NCBI GenBank assembly: GCA_017536445.1
Contig: JAFXHJ010000008.1
Coordinates: 1 to 52,503 of the forward strand
DNA: 52,503 bases
Direction: 5' to 3'
From: Clostridia bacterium
GTDB lineage: Bacteria; Bacillota; Clostridia; TANB77; CAG-465
The position numbers and the translations under genes are program-made. Below the pieces are notes generated by a model, which did no database searches, had not been told where the DNA came from, and saw only the letters and a list, made by a program, of their open reading frames with translations. Within the stretch, counting starts at the first letter, position 1; each line of letters opens with the position of its first letter. Below, in pieces: positions 20,553 through 29,812 of this stretch.

Positions 20553-22691
20553 TTATCCCCTACTTAAACAAAAATCTATTTGTTTTGTGTGTTCATCGGC
20601 TCTTGCAACAATTACCTTTACCTTCTGGCCTATTTCATACTTTTTACCAGTTCTTTCTCCGATTAACACCATTTCTTTTTCATGGTAAATATAATAATCA
20701 TCATCTAGGTTAGACATTGTAACTAAACCTTCAATTGTATTATCTAATTTTACATAGATGCCAAATCCAGTTACAGAAGATATTACTCCTTCATATTCAT
20801 CGCCTAAATGTTTTTTCATATATTTAGCCATGAATAAATCATCAAATTCTCTTTCAATTTCTGTAGCTGTTTTTTCGCATTCGCTACTAGACACTGCATA
20901 TTTTTCTGATTTGTATTGTAATTTTTCTAAAGTTCTATCGTCTAGTACATAACCATTATCTAGATATTTAGATATTACTCTATGAATAAATAAATCTGGA
21001 TATCTTCTAATTGGTGATGTAAAGTGACAATAATCCTTAAAGTTAAGCCCAAAGTGTCCTAAACATTCTTCTGAGTATTTAGCAAGTTTTAAGGATCTTA
21101 AAAGCATTTTAGAAACTATCATATACTTTTTCTCGTCGTTTTCAAATGTTTCTAATGCTGTTGCTAAAGCTCTAGGATGTATTTTATTTATACCTTTAAT
21201 GCTTGAACCCATATTCTTAAGCATTTCATTTAATTCTCTTAATTTTTCTAAATCTGGAGTTTCGTGAATTCTATATATAAACGGAGCCTCTAAATCTCTA
21301 AATGTTTTAGCTACAACTTTATTTGTAACTAACATAAACTCTTCTATTATTGAGTTTGATACACCAATTTTATATGGCATTACATCTATTGGTTCGTTAT
21401 TTTCATCTAAAACAAAGTGAGTTTCTGGAATATCAAAATTAATACTACCATTTGCAACTCTCTTTTTATTTAGAATTTCATATAACTCTTTCATAAGCAT
21501 AATATCTGCCTTATATGGAGCGTACTCTTTTAATGTTTCTTCATTCTCTCCATTTAATACTTCTTCTACCTTATGGTAAGACATACGCTTTTTAGAGCAT
21601 ATAACAGATTTATATATTGTGCTAAATATAACCTTAGCATCTTTGTTTATTATCATATCTACAGAAAGAGCTAATCTAGTTTCACCTTCTGTTAAACTAC
21701 AAATCCCGTTAGATAATGTTCTTGGAAGCATTGGTATAACTTTACCTGGTGTATATATGCTTGTCCCTCTTTTTATAGCTTCTTTATCTATCTCACTACC
21801 TTCTGTAACATAGTGACTTACATCGGCAATATGTACAGATAGTTTATATTCTTCGTCAGATATCTTTTCAACAGAGATAGCATCATCTAAATCTTTTGCA
21901 TCATCGCCATCTATCGTATAAATATTCTTATCTATTAAGTCTACTCTAGAGGTAATGTCTTCATCAGAAATAACAGAAACTTGTTCTGCTTCATCTATTA
22001 CTGCTTTAGGAAATTTTTCATCTATTCCATAGCTCTTAAGTATTACTGCTTGTTCAATATCTCTATCTGATTTATGCCCAATTACTTCAATAATTTTACC
22101 TTCAGCTTTTCTATTTGCTGTTGGATACTTAGTAATTTTAATAACTACTCTATCTTTATTTTGCACGCCTTGAAGTAGTTTGTATGGTACATACACATCT
22201 TCAATTACTCTTCCTTCTACACTAACAAAGCCAAAAGAATCATTCTTTTCTACAGTACCAACAAAAGTAGCTTCTCCACGTTTAATAATCTTCTTAACCG
22301 TACCCTCTAAGCTCTTTCCTTCTTCTTTATGGCCATTAGTTTCTACTAGAACAATATCTTCATCAAAAGCGCCATTAGTACACTCACGAGATATGTATAT
22401 ATCTTTAACATCTGCGTCTGTAGATAAAACGCGAGCGAAACCAAACCCTTTGGATTTGGCTTCAAACTTACACACGAACTTTGAAGTGTTGTTTGGTACA
22501 CATATACGTTTGCTGTCATCTATATATATTTTACCACTCACTTCTAGTTTATTTATTATTTTTTCGAACTCATTCATATCATCCTTAGGAACGCCGAAAA
22601 CGACTGCAATTTGTTTTGCAGTCATTATCTTATATTCTTTAGAATTAACATATTCTAATATTCTATTACTTCTTTCTTCAAACTCTTTCAT
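20553..22691 (-). CDS. rnr: Ribonuclease R
   Basis: 3'-to-5' exoribonuclease that degrades structured RNA and acts in quality control. Domains in order: winged-helix-like N-terminus, cold-shock domains (about 70-215), RNB catalytic domain with Asp cluster DGDDAKDLDDAIS, and a C-terminal S1 domain (GVISSVTGFGIYVKLDN). The long open frame could begin at GTG 22697, but that GTG is within the ribosome site AGGTGG; ATG 22691 is preferred. It lies 9 bp after secG. In many Firmicutes smpB follows secG-rnr, but it is absent here. Confidence 0.95.
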   Translation of the reverse strand: MKEFEERSNRILEYVNSKEYKIMTAKQIAVVFGVPKDDMNEFEKIINKLEVSGKIYIDDSKRICVPNNTSKFVCKFEAKSKGFGFARVLSTDADVKDIYISRECTNGAFDEDIVLVETNGHKEEGKSLEGTVKKIIKRGEATFVGTVEKNDSFGFVSVEGRVIEDVYVPYKLLQGVQNKDRVVIKITKYPTANRKAEGKIIEVIGHKSDRDIEQAVILKSYGIDEKFPKAVIDEAEQVSVISDEDITSRVDLIDKNIYTIDGDDAKDLDDAISVEKISDEEYKLSVHIADVSHYVTEGSEIDKEAIKRGTSIYTPGKVIPMLPRTLSNGICSLTEGETRLALSVDMIINKDAKVIFSTIYKSVICSKKRMSYHKVEEVLNGENEETLKEYAPYKADIMLMKELYEILNKKRVANGSINFDIPETHFVLDENNEPIDVMPYKIGVSNSIIEEFMLVTNKVVAKTFRDLEAPFIYRIHETPDLEKLRELNEMLKNMGSSIKGINKIHPRALATALETFENDEKKYMIVSKMLLRSLKLAKYSEECLGHFGLNFKDYCHFTSPIRRYPDLFIHRVISKYLDNGYVLDDRTLEKLQYKSEKYAVSSSECEKTATEIEREFDDLFMAKYMKKHLGDEYEGVISSVTGFGIYVKLDNTIEGLVTMSNLDDDYYIYHEKEMVLIGERTGKKYEIGQKVKVIVARADEHTKQIDFCLSRG

Positions 22692-24252: not shown

Positions 24253-26400
24253 TTATTCTGCTGAACCTTCTGTTGAATCATCGCTACCTGTATCCGGAGT
24301 TGGTGTTGGTTCCGGAGTAGGTTCGGGTTTAGGCTCAGGTTTTGGTTCTGGTTCAGGCTCTGGTTCAGGTTCCGGAGTAGGCTCTGGTTCTGGCTCTGGT
24401 TCTGGAGTAGGCTCTGGATCAGGAGTTGTACCCGGATTTTCAGGAGTTGTACCTGGATTTTCAGGAGTTGTACCTGGATTTTCAGGAGTCGTTCCTGGAT
24501 TTTCAGGTGTTGTACCTGGATTTTCAGGAGTCGTTCCTGGATTTTCAGGTGTTGTACCTGGGTTCTCAGGTGTTGTACCTGGATTTTCAGGAGTTGTTCC
24601 TGGATTCTCAGGTGTTGTTGGAGTCTCTGGCGTTGTTGGAGTTGTTGTTTCCTCCTTCTTCTCTTCTTCTTTCTTTTCCTCCTCATATACACCTCTTGGA
24701 ACTACTAGCTTATCATTGTATTTAGATAGGCTTATTGAACCACCTTCTAATAATTCACCATCAAGTATTTGATTAATTAATTTTGTTGCTTGTTTAATAT
24801 TTCCCGCATAAGGAATCATAACATAAAGTAATCTCTTGCCCATAGAATATGTTCTTTCGCTTGATCCCAAACCACTTAATGCTGTTGAAGATACTGTCCA
24901 TTTTGCATTATCTGTTATTTGCATTCTTACTAATTCAACCATTTTTTCTGTAGACATATTCGTTTGGAAACTTCCTTTTACTGAAGCTAATATATCATCA
25001 AATTTAGTAAGGATTGTTGTTGATGTAACTTTTTGAATTATTGCATCTATAACTGCTTGTTGGTTTTTACCTCTTGTTGCATCTCCACCTGGTAAAGAAT
25101 ATCTTTCTCTAGCAAAAGCTAATGTTTTCTTACCATTTAATTTATTTAATCCTTTTTTAATTTTGTATTTTCCTATTTTTGTTGTGAATGCATATTCAGA
25201 GTCTACTTCTACTCCACCAATTGCATCAACAATTTTTACAACTGAATTAAAGTTTACTTTTACATAGTAGTTTATATCTATATTTAATAAATCTTCTACT
25301 GTTTTAATAGATTTTTCTACACCGTATATACCTGCGTGTGTTAATTTATCTCTATATCCACTTGTACCATTTAATTTTACATAGTAGTCTCTAGGGATGT
25401 TTACAAGCAATACTTGTTTAGTTGTTGGATTTACTGAAACAACCATATTAACATCACTTCTAGATTTAGAAGGCATTTTTGCAGCACGTGAATCTATACC
25501 ACTTATGTATATATTGAATGGTTTTTCTGTTACAGCTACATCTTTAACTACTTCTGGCATTTTATCTTCAAGATTAAACTCATGAAGAGTAGTAATTTGC
25601 TCTCTGAAATCTGGATAATCTTCTTCAATAAGATCATAGTACGCTTCTTCCACAAGAATTGCGTCTACAGATTTATCTATTAACTTTTTAGCCAATTCAT
25701 GAATGTCATCTGTTTTTTCAGACATCATTACTATAGCTTCTTTAAGTTTTGCCATAGCTTCTTCTGTTTCGCCCATTTCATTATCATAATACATTAATAA
25801 TTTATATGATAAATCTTCTAGCTTTTTATATTCACCGTCTTTTAATACAACTAATGCATAAGCCTTAGTTTCTACAACTTCACTGTCTATTTCTTTTAAT
25901 ATGTCTGTAGATTCACCTAAAATTGAATTTACATATATGCATACAGCTACTATTGCAGCAGCAAAAACTCCGAATATCACTTTTACTATACTACTAAATT
26001 TCTTCCATAAAGTAGTTGTTGCTAACATACCTACTAATATTGCTAATCCGCCGCCAAAAACGAAATATAATATCTTCATATAATTTGCTGGTATTAAATT
26101 AAGGTCGTTATTTAATTTAACTCCTCTTACAAAAGTTATTATTAAAATAACTGTTGCAACTAATGTTAATACTCCTGTTACTATTCTAATTATTTTCTTT
26201 GTTTTTGTATCTTCAAAAGGCTTTTTCTCTTTTATCTTCTTTTCTTTCGGTTCTTTTACCTTTTTCTCTTTAACTTTTTTCTCTTTTATAGGAGAATCGT
26301 TAGCTTCTACCTTATTTCTTTTTAAGAAAAGTTTTTTATTTTCTTCTCTTTGTTCTTTTTCTCTTCTTCTTATTTCCCTTTGTTCTTTTCTGCTTTCCAT
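24253..26400 (-). CDS. LytR-CpsA-Psr (LCP) family cell-wall ligase with repeated Pro-rich tail, 715 aa
   Basis: It attaches wall polymers (teichoic or capsular type) to peptidoglycan at the outer membrane face. A strongly charged cytoplasmic head (Lys/Glu/Arg, 1-65) precedes three membrane helices between about 66 and 155. The LCP domain (about 295-470) shows the lipid/phosphate-binding pattern: ISGIDSRAAKMPSKSRSDVNM, VNIPRDYYV, AGIYGVEKSI and the later FARERYSLPGGDATRGKNQQAVI. From about 590 the extracellular tail is nine copies of TTPENPG, then a PEPTPEPEP stretch. The protein is much longer than plain LCP enzymes because of this tail. The promoter is at 26425-26453. Confidence 0.9.
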   Translation of the reverse strand: MESRKEQREIRRREKEQREENKKLFLKRNKVEANDSPIKEKKVKEKKVKEPKEKKIKEKKPFEDTKTKKIIRIVTGVLTLVATVILIITFVRGVKLNNDLNLIPANYMKILYFVFGGGLAILVGMLATTTLWKKFSSIVKVIFGVFAAAIVAVCIYVNSILGESTDILKEIDSEVVETKAYALVVLKDGEYKKLEDLSYKLLMYYDNEMGETEEAMAKLKEAIVMMSEKTDDIHELAKKLIDKSVDAILVEEAYYDLIEEDYPDFREQITTLHEFNLEDKMPEVVKDVAVTEKPFNIYISGIDSRAAKMPSKSRSDVNMVVSVNPTTKQVLLVNIPRDYYVKLNGTSGYRDKLTHAGIYGVEKSIKTVEDLLNIDINYYVKVNFNSVVKIVDAIGGVEVDSEYAFTTKIGKYKIKKGLNKLNGKKTLAFARERYSLPGGDATRGKNQQAVIDAIIQKVTSTTILTKFDDILASVKGSFQTNMSTEKMVELVRMQITDNAKWTVSSTALSGLGSSERTYSMGKRLLYVMIPYAGNIKQATKLINQILDGELLEGGSISLSKYNDKLVVPRGVYEEEKKEEEKKEETTTPTTPETPTTPENPGTTPENPGTTPENPGTTPENPGTTPENPGTTPENPGTTPENPGTTPENPGTTPENPGTTPDPEPTPEPEPEPEPTPEPEPEPEPEPKPEPKPEPTPEPTPTPDTGSDDSTEGSAE
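24431..24619 (-). repeat. 21-bp tandem repeat (9 copies) encoding TTPENPG
   Basis: Nine copies of the unit cctggattttcaggagttgta (minus-strand reading gives TTPENPG), with small synonymous differences (gtc/gtt, ggt/gga). All copies keep the frame, so length can change without breaking the protein. It is a candidate for copy-number variation between strains. Confidence 0.9.
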
Positions 26401-26731: not shown

Positions 26732-27469
26732 TTAAATTACCATACCACCATTTGGACTTATTACTTGTCCAGTAATATATCTTGCGTTATCTGACGCTAA
26801 GAATAATACTAGTTTAGCAACTTCTTCTGCTTCACCAAGTCTTCCCATTGGTATATCTTTTTTAATTAATTCTATGTCGTTTTCGTCATATTCTTTGAAT
26901 ATCATATCAGTAGCTATAGTCCCTGGTGCAACTGTATTTACTGTTATGTTGCTTGGAGCCAATTCTTTAGCTAACCCTTTAGTTAATCCTATAACACCTG
27001 CTTTTGATGCAGAATACGCCACTTCACACGAGCTGCCTGTGATTCCCCATATCGAAGAAACATTTATTATAGCTCCATCTTTTTTAGATAGCATGCCTTG
27101 CTTTAATGCAGATTGAGTTACATTAAATACACCTGTAAGGTTTACATCTAATACTCTTTTCCATTCATCTTCTTCTAAATCTGTAAATAGTCCTACTTGT
27201 GAAATACCCGCATTATTTACTATTACATCTATTCCACCAAATTCTTTTACAGCATATTCTACCATAGCATCAACTTCATCGCGGTTTGTTACATCCGCTT
27301 TGAACATTTCTACTACGCCATCACAACCTTCTAAATCTTTAACTATATCTTTAGCAGATTGTTCTGAACGATTGTAATTTAGAAGAACATTATATCCCGC
27401 ATTAGCAAAGGCATATACTATCGCCTTGCCGATTCCTCTAGAACCTCCTGTTACAAGTGCTGTTTTCAT
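26732..27469 (-). CDS. fabG: 3-oxoacyl-ACP reductase (FabG-type SDR)
   Basis: NADPH-dependent reductase of the fatty-acid elongation cycle. The 245 residues are a standard short-chain dehydrogenase: nucleotide loop TGGSRGIG (7-14), NNAG (85-88), catalytic Ser138/139, Tyr152 and Lys156 (YSASK). Start ATG 27469 follows AAGGAGGCATATAC. It lies 40 bp downstream of the large coiled-coil protein with no terminator between, so both share a transcript. No other fatty-acid-synthesis gene is adjacent, so a different SDR substrate cannot be excluded. Confidence 0.85.
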   Translation of the reverse strand: MKTALVTGGSRGIGKAIVYAFANAGYNVLLNYNRSEQSAKDIVKDLEGCDGVVEMFKADVTNRDEVDAMVEYAVKEFGGIDVIVNNAGISQVGLFTDLEEDEWKRVLDVNLTGVFNVTQSALKQGMLSKKDGAIINVSSIWGITGSSCEVAYSASKAGVIGLTKGLAKELAPSNITVNTVAPGTIATDMIFKEYDENDIELIKKDIPMGRLGEAEEVAKLVLFLASDNARYITGQVISPNGGMVI

Positions 27470-27509: not shown

Positions 27510-29303
27510 TTAACCGTCTATATCATGACCAGTAAATTCCACCGTTGGTTCTTCAGTATCTTTTTTTTCAACGATAGTCTCTTTAACTTCTTCTGGTGAA
27601 TATACATTGGCTGATAGATTATCCATCATATCTACCTTATCTGGAGCATCAGCACCTTTTTCTGTCTCCGCTTTTCCCTTATGTTCCACTTCACTTCTTG
27701 AAGCTAAGGCTGCCGCCAGTGCTGCATCTCTCATAGTTCTATCTTGATCTGCCACCGCTTCTCTTCCTACTCCATCTATATCCGCTCTTACAGAATCACG
27801 AACTGCTTGAGAAGCTGGATCTATTTCAGTAGATGCTGGTAAAGAATCTATTTTGTCTCCACCTGTTAACCAAGCTATAGGGTTAAGTCTTCTTTTAGCT
27901 TTTACTTTTTTGTGAACATCTAATGTCTCTCTGAATGTTTCCATTCTTCCTAATTCTTTTTTAGCTAATGCGTATAATCTCTCATCTTCGCCGCTTAATT
28001 CTCTGCCCGCTGCTAATCTTGTATCTCCTTCTTCAACAACTTTTGCATAAATAGCTTCTGCTTTTATTCTAGTTTTAGGATTTGAAGCTAATGCCTTTAT
28101 TCCTTTCCAAGACGCTAGCTCTATACTTGGTACTACACCTTCACCAAAATCTTGTTTTGAATCTATTCCATACACTTTTTCTATTTGAGATACTGGTTCT
28201 TTATATTCTTTTACCATATAATGGCCCATAGCTGTAAATAGAACTTTAGCCTTATTTCTAAATAACCCAGTAGTTATTCCGTATTTAGTATAAGCTGCAG
28301 GATCTGACATAAGTGGTAACAATTTCTTCATATGTACATCTTTTAATTGTTTTTCTTTAGCAAGTCTATATATACTGTTGAATTCTTCAACCGTTAGTTC
28401 AGCTGGTGCTTCTGGCGCTGCAGGGCTAGAAGTTCTACTTCCACCTGGAGTCGTTGTACTGCTTCCACCTGGAGTTGTTGTATCATTTCTACCTGGAGTT
28501 GTTGTGCTACTTCCACCTGGAGTTGTTGTATCATTTCTACCTGGAGTTGTTGTGCTACTTCCACCTGGAGTTGTTGTGCTGCTTCCACCTGGAGTTGTTG
28601 TATCATCTCTACCCGGAGTTGTTGTGCTGCTTCCACCTGGAGTTGTTGTATCATCTCTACCTGGAGTTGTTGTACTGCTTCCACCTGGAGTTGTACCTGG
28701 AACTGCTGTATCATCTCCACCTGGAACTGTTGTATCATTTCCGCCTACTACTGGATCATCTTTTGTTCCAAAGTTTTTCTTAGCTCTTTCTATTCTTTTT
28801 TCTAACGCAGATAAATCATCTATTTCTTCTTGCGTAAATACACCTTTATCTTTAAACAAAGCCAATATTGGCAATAATTTTTTCTTCTGGTCTGTTATTT
28901 TCTTTTTAATTGATTTTTCGCTTGGTATTTTCTTAAGATCTCTATCTATACCTTCTATTTCCGCTTGATAAATTCTTATTTTGTCTTTATCTCCTGCTTC
29001 ACCTTTTTCTATTTCAGTATCTATTTCTGCTTGTAACTCAGCTTTTCTTTTTTCTGCTTTTTCTTTGAATTCTTCATTTGTTCTTATTTTATCTTCCAAA
29101 CCGGCTATAGCTTCCATTATTTCAGCTTTAGCTTTATTAGCAAGTCCAATTATACTTTCTTCTAAGCTAGCAATAGCATTATCAAAACCAGCAACGGTAT
29201 TTGTTCTTTCTTCATCAGTTAAATCATCTCTACCTTCTGCGGCTGCTTTATCTGCAACAAGCTTTTGGTATTGTTCTTCTAATATTTCATAATCTTTTCC
29301 CAT
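27510..29303 (-). CDS. Unrecognised coiled-coil protein with Thr-Pro-Gly octapeptide repeats, 597 aa
   Basis: I do not recognise the family. Residues 1-175 are highly charged, predicted helical and coiled-coil ([26 protein letters not shown]). Residues 203-290 are 11 units of eight (TTTPGGSS alternating with TTTPGRDD or TTTPGRND). Residues 305-470 are a helical, basic domain ([37 protein letters not shown]). An acidic, Ala-rich tail ends [11 protein letters not shown]. There is no signal peptide or membrane helix, so a cytoplasmic location is likely despite a surface-protein-like repeat. The ribosome site is TAGGAGGGCG. It lies 12 bp after a 41-aa coiled-coil gene. Confidence 0.7.
28434..28697 (-). 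repeat. 24-bp tandem repeat (11 units) encoding [16 protein letters not shown]
   Basis: Eleven in-frame 24-bp units of two alternating types (GGSS and RDD/RND endings). The alternation suggests a 48-bp higher-order unit that was later partly rearranged. Units are nearly identical at the DNA level. Confidence 0.9.
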
Positions 29304-29315
29304 TTTTTCGCCCTC

Positions 29316-29441
29316 CTATTTTTTTAGTTCGTCTACTTTCTTTTGTAGCTCTGCTAGTTTTTCTAAATCTTCTGTAGCTTTCTCTAATTTTTCTACGTCT
29401 GCATTAATTTCTTCTTCAGTGTAGAATTTCTTTTCTTCCAT
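29316..29441 (-). CDS. Small coiled-coil protein, 41 aa
   Basis: A very short gene: ATG 29441, stop TAG at 29318-29316, preceded by GTGGAGGTATATATT. The product MEEKKFYTEEEINADVEKLE continues as a charged helix with a heptad pattern (LEKLAELQKKVDELKK). It is cotranscribed with the 597-aa coiled-coil gene, whose ribosome site overlaps the stop region. A direct partner role (helix pairing) is plausible but inferred. It is below usual gene-calling size. Confidence 0.75.
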   Translation of the reverse strand: MEEKKFYTEEEINADVEKLEKATEDLEKLAELQKKVDELKK

Positions 29442-29456
29442 AATATATACCTCCAC

Positions 29457-29470
29457 ATGCAAATTTGCAT
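29457..29470. promoter_or_regulatory. 14-bp palindrome in the leader of the coiled-coil operon
   Basis: Perfect palindrome ATGCAAATTTGCAT between the -10 box and the ribosome site of the 41-aa gene, near +10 of the transcript. It suits a repressor site. Confidence 0.5.
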
Positions 29471-29484
29471 ACTCTTATAACTCA

Positions 29485-29513
29485 ATACTAACATATATAA
29501 AAAAATATGTCAA
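29485..29513 (-). promoter_or_regulatory. Promoter of the coiled-coil/fabG operon
   Basis: On the minus strand TTGACA (29513-29508), 17 bp, TAGTAT (29490-29485). Confidence 0.75.
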
Positions 29514-29601: not shown

Positions 29602-29661
29602 ATTAGCCGTAAAGTATTTTTAAACTTAAAGGAGTGAGTTTAAAAAAAGTTTAAGAATATT

Positions 29662-29812
29662 AGCGCAGGGTTTTGCTAGATATAGCAAATTGACGAGGAT
29701 GATAGTTATCGAAGAATCAGCGGGTGCTATCACGGTTTAATGGGATCGACATATAGGTACAAAAGGTAAAATTCGGGAATTACTACAAAAAGCCTATAAT
29801 CCAAAAGTACAT
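29662..29812 (+). ncRNA. glmS ribozyme (glucosamine-6-phosphate riboswitch)
   Basis: Self-cleaving riboswitch upstream of glmS. Cleavage is expected between A29662 and G29663 (A|GCGC). The catalytic core is recognisable: AGCGCAGGG, a P2 hairpin GTTTTGCTAGATATAGCAAAT, then TTGACGAGGATGATAGTTATCG (the conserved TTGACGAGGATG), CAGCGGGTGCTATCACGG and AATGGGATCGACAT. The 3' part forms an extended P4 with TATAGG / CCTATA. Binding of glucosamine-6-phosphate triggers cleavage and mRNA decay, repressing glmS. The right boundary is approximate. Confidence 0.93.

Follow-up and report, generated by a model that had tools for sequence, protein, structure and literature searches.

The window, by which we mean the whole stretch of 52,503 nucleotides analysed from a Clostridia bacterium (contig JAFXHJ010000008.1), carries on its minus strand a very small gene followed by a large one. 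The locus raises the question whether the two encoded proteins belong together, and what such a pair might do. An earlier interpretation made from the DNA letters and open reading frames (the sequence-only reading) had described them as a coiled-coil pair with a palindromic operator, linked to fabG and possibly forming a scaffold or a non-classically exported element.

Gene layout and expression signals

On the minus strand, a sigma-A-type promoter (29485..29513) and a leader with a palindrome are followed by the small gene (29316..29441), the large gene (27510..29303) and a gene for an SDR reductase (26732..27469). The small gene encodes an acidic helical protein of 41 aa and begins with ATG, 8 nt from a GGAGG ribosome site at 29450-29454. 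Such sites also precede the large gene (597 aa) and the SDR gene, a GGAGG being contained in the gap of 12 bp between the small and the large gene. The SDR gene starts 40 bp past the stop codon of the large gene, and no terminator-like element was seen between them when the sequence was read. For the two ORFs of the pair, the coordinates, sizes and other countable details in the sequence-only reading were all accurate. On the other side, the locus adjoins glmS on the plus strand, with the glmS ribozyme (29651-29808) directly upstream of glmS and just past the promoter of the pair.

The promoter proposed ahead of both genes was confirmed as sigma-A-type (TTGACA-17 bp-TAGTAT), agreeing with the consensus at 10 of 12 positions. 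A match of at least 9/12 was present in 23 of 26 equivalent leaders, compared to 0.5% in shuffles; these promoters are TTGACW-16/17-TATAAT-like and lie 23-43 bp ahead of the first gene. The remaining three leaders belong to genes that lie downstream in a longer operon. Strong promoters of this type and the near-universal presence of the large gene in genus g4 (see below) suggest an important, perhaps abundant protein, which no database covers.

The promoters also bear on the idea of a protein of the spore envelope that assembles from the cytoplasm of the mother cell. Proteins of this kind have no signal peptide, change rapidly in evolution and bear repeats. All 10 genomes tested, that of the window included, encode SpoIVA, so spore-related roles have to be considered, and the large protein has repeats and no export signal. 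However, near-consensus sigma-A promoters with 17-bp spacing are unlike those of mother-cell sigma factors, a second promoter being possible, and no spore-coat family was matched in Pfam or NCBIfam. We regard this role as improbable.

The leader contains the perfect 14-bp palindrome ATGCAAATTTGCAT (29457..29470), for which the chance expectation is about 0.011 per 72-bp leader. It exists as described, but its interpretation as a conserved operator was abandoned, since the 1.3-Mb genome has no second exact copy of it and it is absent from the leaders of relatives; the palindrome may be incidental. A different element occurs in leaders of class A loci (L061, L063-L066 and L094; classes are given below), where an inverted repeat (AAAGTCAA...TTGACTTTA type) with a T run behind it is located some 50-85 bases ahead of the small gene. 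This repeat resembles a terminator, and its 3' arm holds the -35 box of the promoter of the pair.

The SDR of the window scored 276.2 bits against the FabG equivalog TIGR01830, which is below the cutoff of 297.75, and passed the cutoffs of the looser FabG subfamily NF009466 (269.7 bits, cutoff 222) and of the YmfI equivalog NF047420 (262 bits, cutoff 238). The SDR of G002, a genome of genus g2, reached 249 bits against NF047420 (cutoff 238). Because the YmfI cutoff was passed and the FabG equivalog cutoff failed, the protein is better labelled EF-P 5-aminopentanone reductase, the enzymatic step of YmfI. The linkage to a downstream SDR is thus real, but judged by these profile scores the gene is probably ymfI-like rather than fabG. 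In B. subtilis, YmfI is described as part of the EF-P 5-aminopentanol modification pathway (PMC5885033). The likeness to YmfI and FabG-family SDRs concerns the neighbour gene and tells nothing about the pair. A connection between EF-P modification and translation of the proline-containing linker of the large protein was considered but set aside, since the linker prolines are single and not polyproline.

Structure, localisation and homology of the large protein

AlphaFold2 agrees with the earlier description of two helical parts split by a linker, and predicts the linker (residues 179-302, in the full model 177-299) to be disordered. The N-terminal coiled-coil module (N-module; residues 1-178, 28770..29303, minus strand) comprises helices at residues 2-22, 30-99, 106-124, 129-153 and 158-178. 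Within the linker, the octapeptide repeats G(G/R)xxTTTP (28422..28685, minus strand) number exactly 11, as had been counted, and cover residues 207-294; at the DNA level they form a 24-bp array of 10.8 copies. The helical C-terminal domain (C-domain; residues 303-473, 27885..28397, minus strand) has a length of 171 aa and is predicted with confidence, with a pLDDT of 89 and a pTM of 0.84 when modelled alone from three sequences. It is followed by a charged tail (27513..27884, minus strand), modelled for the most part with low confidence and with a single helix predicted at residues 496-544. Another Pro/Thr repeat lies near the pair: an LCP-family wall protein encoded two genes away (24253-26400) has roughly nine NPGTTPE heptapeptides in its C-terminal tail, which correspond to a 21-bp array of 9.5 copies.

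Neither the small nor the large protein yielded a significant match in Pfam, NCBIfam, PHROGs or PADLOC, and the large protein had none by sequence in the PDB. Foldseek with the C-domain against PDB and BFVD gave no match at E up to 0.001, and the best Z score in VIA, 7.1, is one that common helical arrangements also reach. The predicted fold of the C-domain is possibly new. A fold search with the full model was discarded as a clue to identity, as it matched generic coiled coils only, to which the matches of the N-module were also limited. The absence of homology to a known system, as expected from the sequence-only reading, hence holds for the profile, sequence and fold searches mentioned, and no relevant paper on such a locus came up in a literature search. 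By sequence, the C-domain was found only in two genomes of g2, another genus of the same family (G002 and G006, both Clostridia MAGs), at ~25% identity. Searches for class A over 191 genomes of the order and for class C over 391 genomes of the taxonomic class gave no convincing member outside the family. Of the weak profile matches outside the family, L098, L099 and L149 were inspected and L150 was left out; the first two were unrelated genes and the third was a radical-SAM protein.

These searches weigh on the possibility of an intracellular phage-defence or phage-sensing protein with the N-module as its variable recognition part. A constitutive-type promoter, the lack of an export signal and the replacement of one module between close relatives would fit such a protein. 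PADLOC, which covers described systems only, PHROGs and phage records gave no significant match, however; the best PADLOC matches reflect coiled-coil similarity, the top one (E 0.014) being to a coiled-coil stretch of DruC. Moreover, the locus occupies one fixed site in most g4 genomes and is not patchily distributed in islands. We consider this function improbable. A phage or mobile origin was likewise rejected, as the large protein had no matches in phage records or IMG/VR.

In line with the earlier statement that no export signal is present, the maximum 19-residue Kyte-Doolittle mean of the large protein is 0.99, compared to 2.73 for the neighbouring LCP protein, and there is no hydrophobic export segment. 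No family member showed a segment in the hydrophobicity scan that could credibly serve for export or membrane insertion; a high score of L080_639 was due only to an overextended GTG start. The protein could still be a surface or secreted protein that is exported without a signal peptide, exposes its N-module to phage, host or neighbours and uses the Thr-Pro-Gly linker as a wall-spanning stalk. Module replacement between close species speaks for this possibility, as do the similar Pro-Thr linker of the nearby LCP protein and the neighbouring genes, which are often glycan genes (galE, glycosyltransferases, flippase and CDP-glycerol-transferase-like, named from sequence reading). On the other hand, no member has a signal peptide or membrane segment, and no WXG100 protein was matched in 10 genomes, for which the B. 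subtilis control was positive. The Thr-Pro-Gly tract is present as described but limited to this species, and the linkers at the same place in relatives are Gln/Ala/Gly-rich or acidic, which is not stalk-like. Export of this kind appears rather unlikely to us.

Substrates of LXG-type type VII secretion have small helical partner proteins of about 100 aa. Similar to these substrates, the locus combines a gene for a small helical protein with a gene directly downstream for a large helical protein without signal peptide. It differs from them in the size of the small protein (~43 aa vs ~100), in the absence of WXG100 from the ten genomes and in the lack of toxin and LXG domains: a Pfam scan of P0001 and relatives detected no LXG or WXG domain, and toxin domains, flagellin and spore-coat families gave no Pfam match.

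Conservation of the pair and divergence of the N-module

The SDR was used as an anchor, and the region upstream of it was read in about 40 genomes. The reading covered 24 loci that encode a large helical protein in genus g4, a sister genus and the best sampled one in the family. In 23 of these, a helical acidic ORF of 39-55 aa sits directly ahead of the large gene, overlapping it by one base in some loci; the co-occurrence in related genomes that had been suggested as a check is thus given. The SDR follows immediately in most g4 loci, while a glycosyltransferase and a flippase (names from sequence reading) are in between in a few. Both genomes of g2 have the large gene directly followed by the SDR and no small ORF, which indicates that the small protein is not universally needed. 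Conservation of the 41-aa ORF extends to positional counterparts in g4, with purifying selection in class A, but not to g2. Judged from sequence and gene order, the pair in g4 is more than a chance arrangement and is conserved at one fixed chromosomal site in a family of uncultured Clostridia.

G001, from the same genus as the window, was discarded as a test of conservation, because its contigs stop within glmS and near window position 22332, which leaves the region uncovered. In genus g3, GGDEF-type proteins precede the SDR, and in other families of the order a different, carbohydrate-binding-like gene takes this position (both from sequence reading). In one of these families (L069, L074, L077, L085 and L089), the carbohydrate-binding-like protein upstream of the SDR is conserved and has ~155 aa.

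BLAST comparison divided the large proteins of g4 into class A (13), class B (7), class D (2) and singletons, and the small proteins match these classes throughout (A-A 13/13, B-B 7/7, D-D 2/2). All class A loci encode small proteins with the C-terminal motif DAHxxFIxxLKxxVNKY, those of class B have a different helix and those of class D carry FIASLKELVY. The small protein of the window weakly resembles several from g4; its score with the L140 small protein was unreached in 300 shuffles, with 23 proteins compared. Purifying selection acts on the small genes of class A (median pN/pS 0.34) and is strongest in the C-terminal half (pN 0.11 vs pS 0.60). When SDR identity was controlled, the identity of the small C-terminal half did not correlate significantly with that of the C-domain (r=0.23, p=0.11). 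Coevolution of both proteins beyond shared ancestry was thus not significant, and the class matching may reflect shared ancestry alone. Profile comparison of the C-domains of classes A, B, C and D found no homology, which leaves a single superfamily of these domains without support; the large proteins of different genera are grouped in one family by their gene position and layout.

The N-module diverges out of proportion to its surroundings, a result that applies to genus g4, the window genus having one relative (G001) with a gap at this site. Between L061 and L063, the amino acid identity is 98% for the SDR, 73% for the C-domain and 16% for the N-module. Across class A, C-domain identity tracks SDR identity (Mantel test, r=0.76, p=0.0002), whereas N-module identity is unrelated to that of the SDR (r=0.04) or the C-domain (r=-0.01), as expected from module replacement. 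At the DNA level, L061 and L063 are ~91% identical up to base 2280, just past the start codon of the large gene at 2264. Identity then drops to about 50%, without BLAST alignment up to about 3138, is 81% over the C-domain, diverges in the tail and returns to 93% from 3955 on. L066 and L094 show the same pattern.

Fast drift of a low-constraint coiled coil, without exchange or selected variability, would offer another explanation. Charged coiled coils tolerate change, and the tail diverges too. Against drift, L061 and L064 share 45% and L063 and L066 share 40% in the N-module at an SDR identity of 87%, compared to the 16% of L061 and L063 at 98%. Drift alone is insufficient, since N-module identity is higher between the more distant pairs, and we regard it as an improbable cause. 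Based on these sequence comparisons, module exchange is the simplest reading of the divergence, and recombination would be its cause.

The large gene can thus be called hypervariable, with half of the protein apparently replaced in some related species between flanking genes of ~90% identity. Such replacement between DNA flanks of ~91-93% identity suggests that the protein is in an arms race or has a partner that changes. Contigs end in or beside the locus in several assemblies (G001 C33/C44, G006 C71, G021 C66, G025 C34/C102, G034 C19, G011 C10). This is possibly a sign of strain-level variation, and variability may also be hidden at this level.

Possible role of the pair

What the analysis shows is the arrangement of the genes, the predicted domains, the type of promoter, the conserved pairing and the disproportionate divergence of the N-module in g4. 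As a role for the pair we tentatively favour, with somewhat less than even confidence, a cytoplasmic, constitutively expressed adaptor or scaffold with an exchangeable arm and a small accessory protein, encoded in a small-large-SDR operon. The three genes would be transcribed constitutively as one unit, and the large protein would stay in the cytoplasm. Its conserved helical C-domain would serve as the fixed core and the disordered linker as a tether, while the N-terminal coiled coil would be the exchangeable arm that binds a partner varying between species. The small acidic helical protein may dock on the large one and aid its folding, oligomerisation or binding. The species of the window would share the N-module behaviour seen in g4.

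The missing export segment, the sigma-A promoters, the pairing in g4, the class matching, the purifying selection and the N-module replacement were counted in favour of an adaptor. Counted against it were the lack of the small gene in g2, the lack of a significant small-large correlation after SDR control and the absence of C-domain homology across classes in profile comparison. In addition, a rapidly exchanged module would be expected sooner in an exposed or immune-related protein than in a scaffold.

More speculatively, the locus might encode a new class of intracellular two-protein device, found at one site in a clostridial family, whose specificity is changed by wholesale replacement of the N-module while core, small partner and flanks are conserved. 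We hold this to be doubtful; if true, its target would have to change fast and might be a phage, a mobile element or a host factor.

Two known types of protein resemble the large protein in part. PopZ, a bacterial hub scaffold, has a helix-disordered linker-helix layout, and the large protein shares this order of parts and the lack of an export signal. It differs from PopZ-type scaffolds in that no Pfam or NCBIfam scaffold family was matched by sequence, and to our knowledge neither exchange of an N-terminal module nor a small partner gene is among the features of such hubs. Flagellin-type hypervariable proteins likewise lack a signal peptide and are encoded at a fixed locus by a gene that is hypervariable in one part and conserved elsewhere. 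Their variable part is the middle, whereas one end varies here, and no flagellin match was obtained in Pfam.

In some species, more large charged helical proteins of other classes are encoded upstream of the pair (L073 657-2360; L076 632-2296; L075 4034-5800; L084 1249-2511), as if the site collects them.
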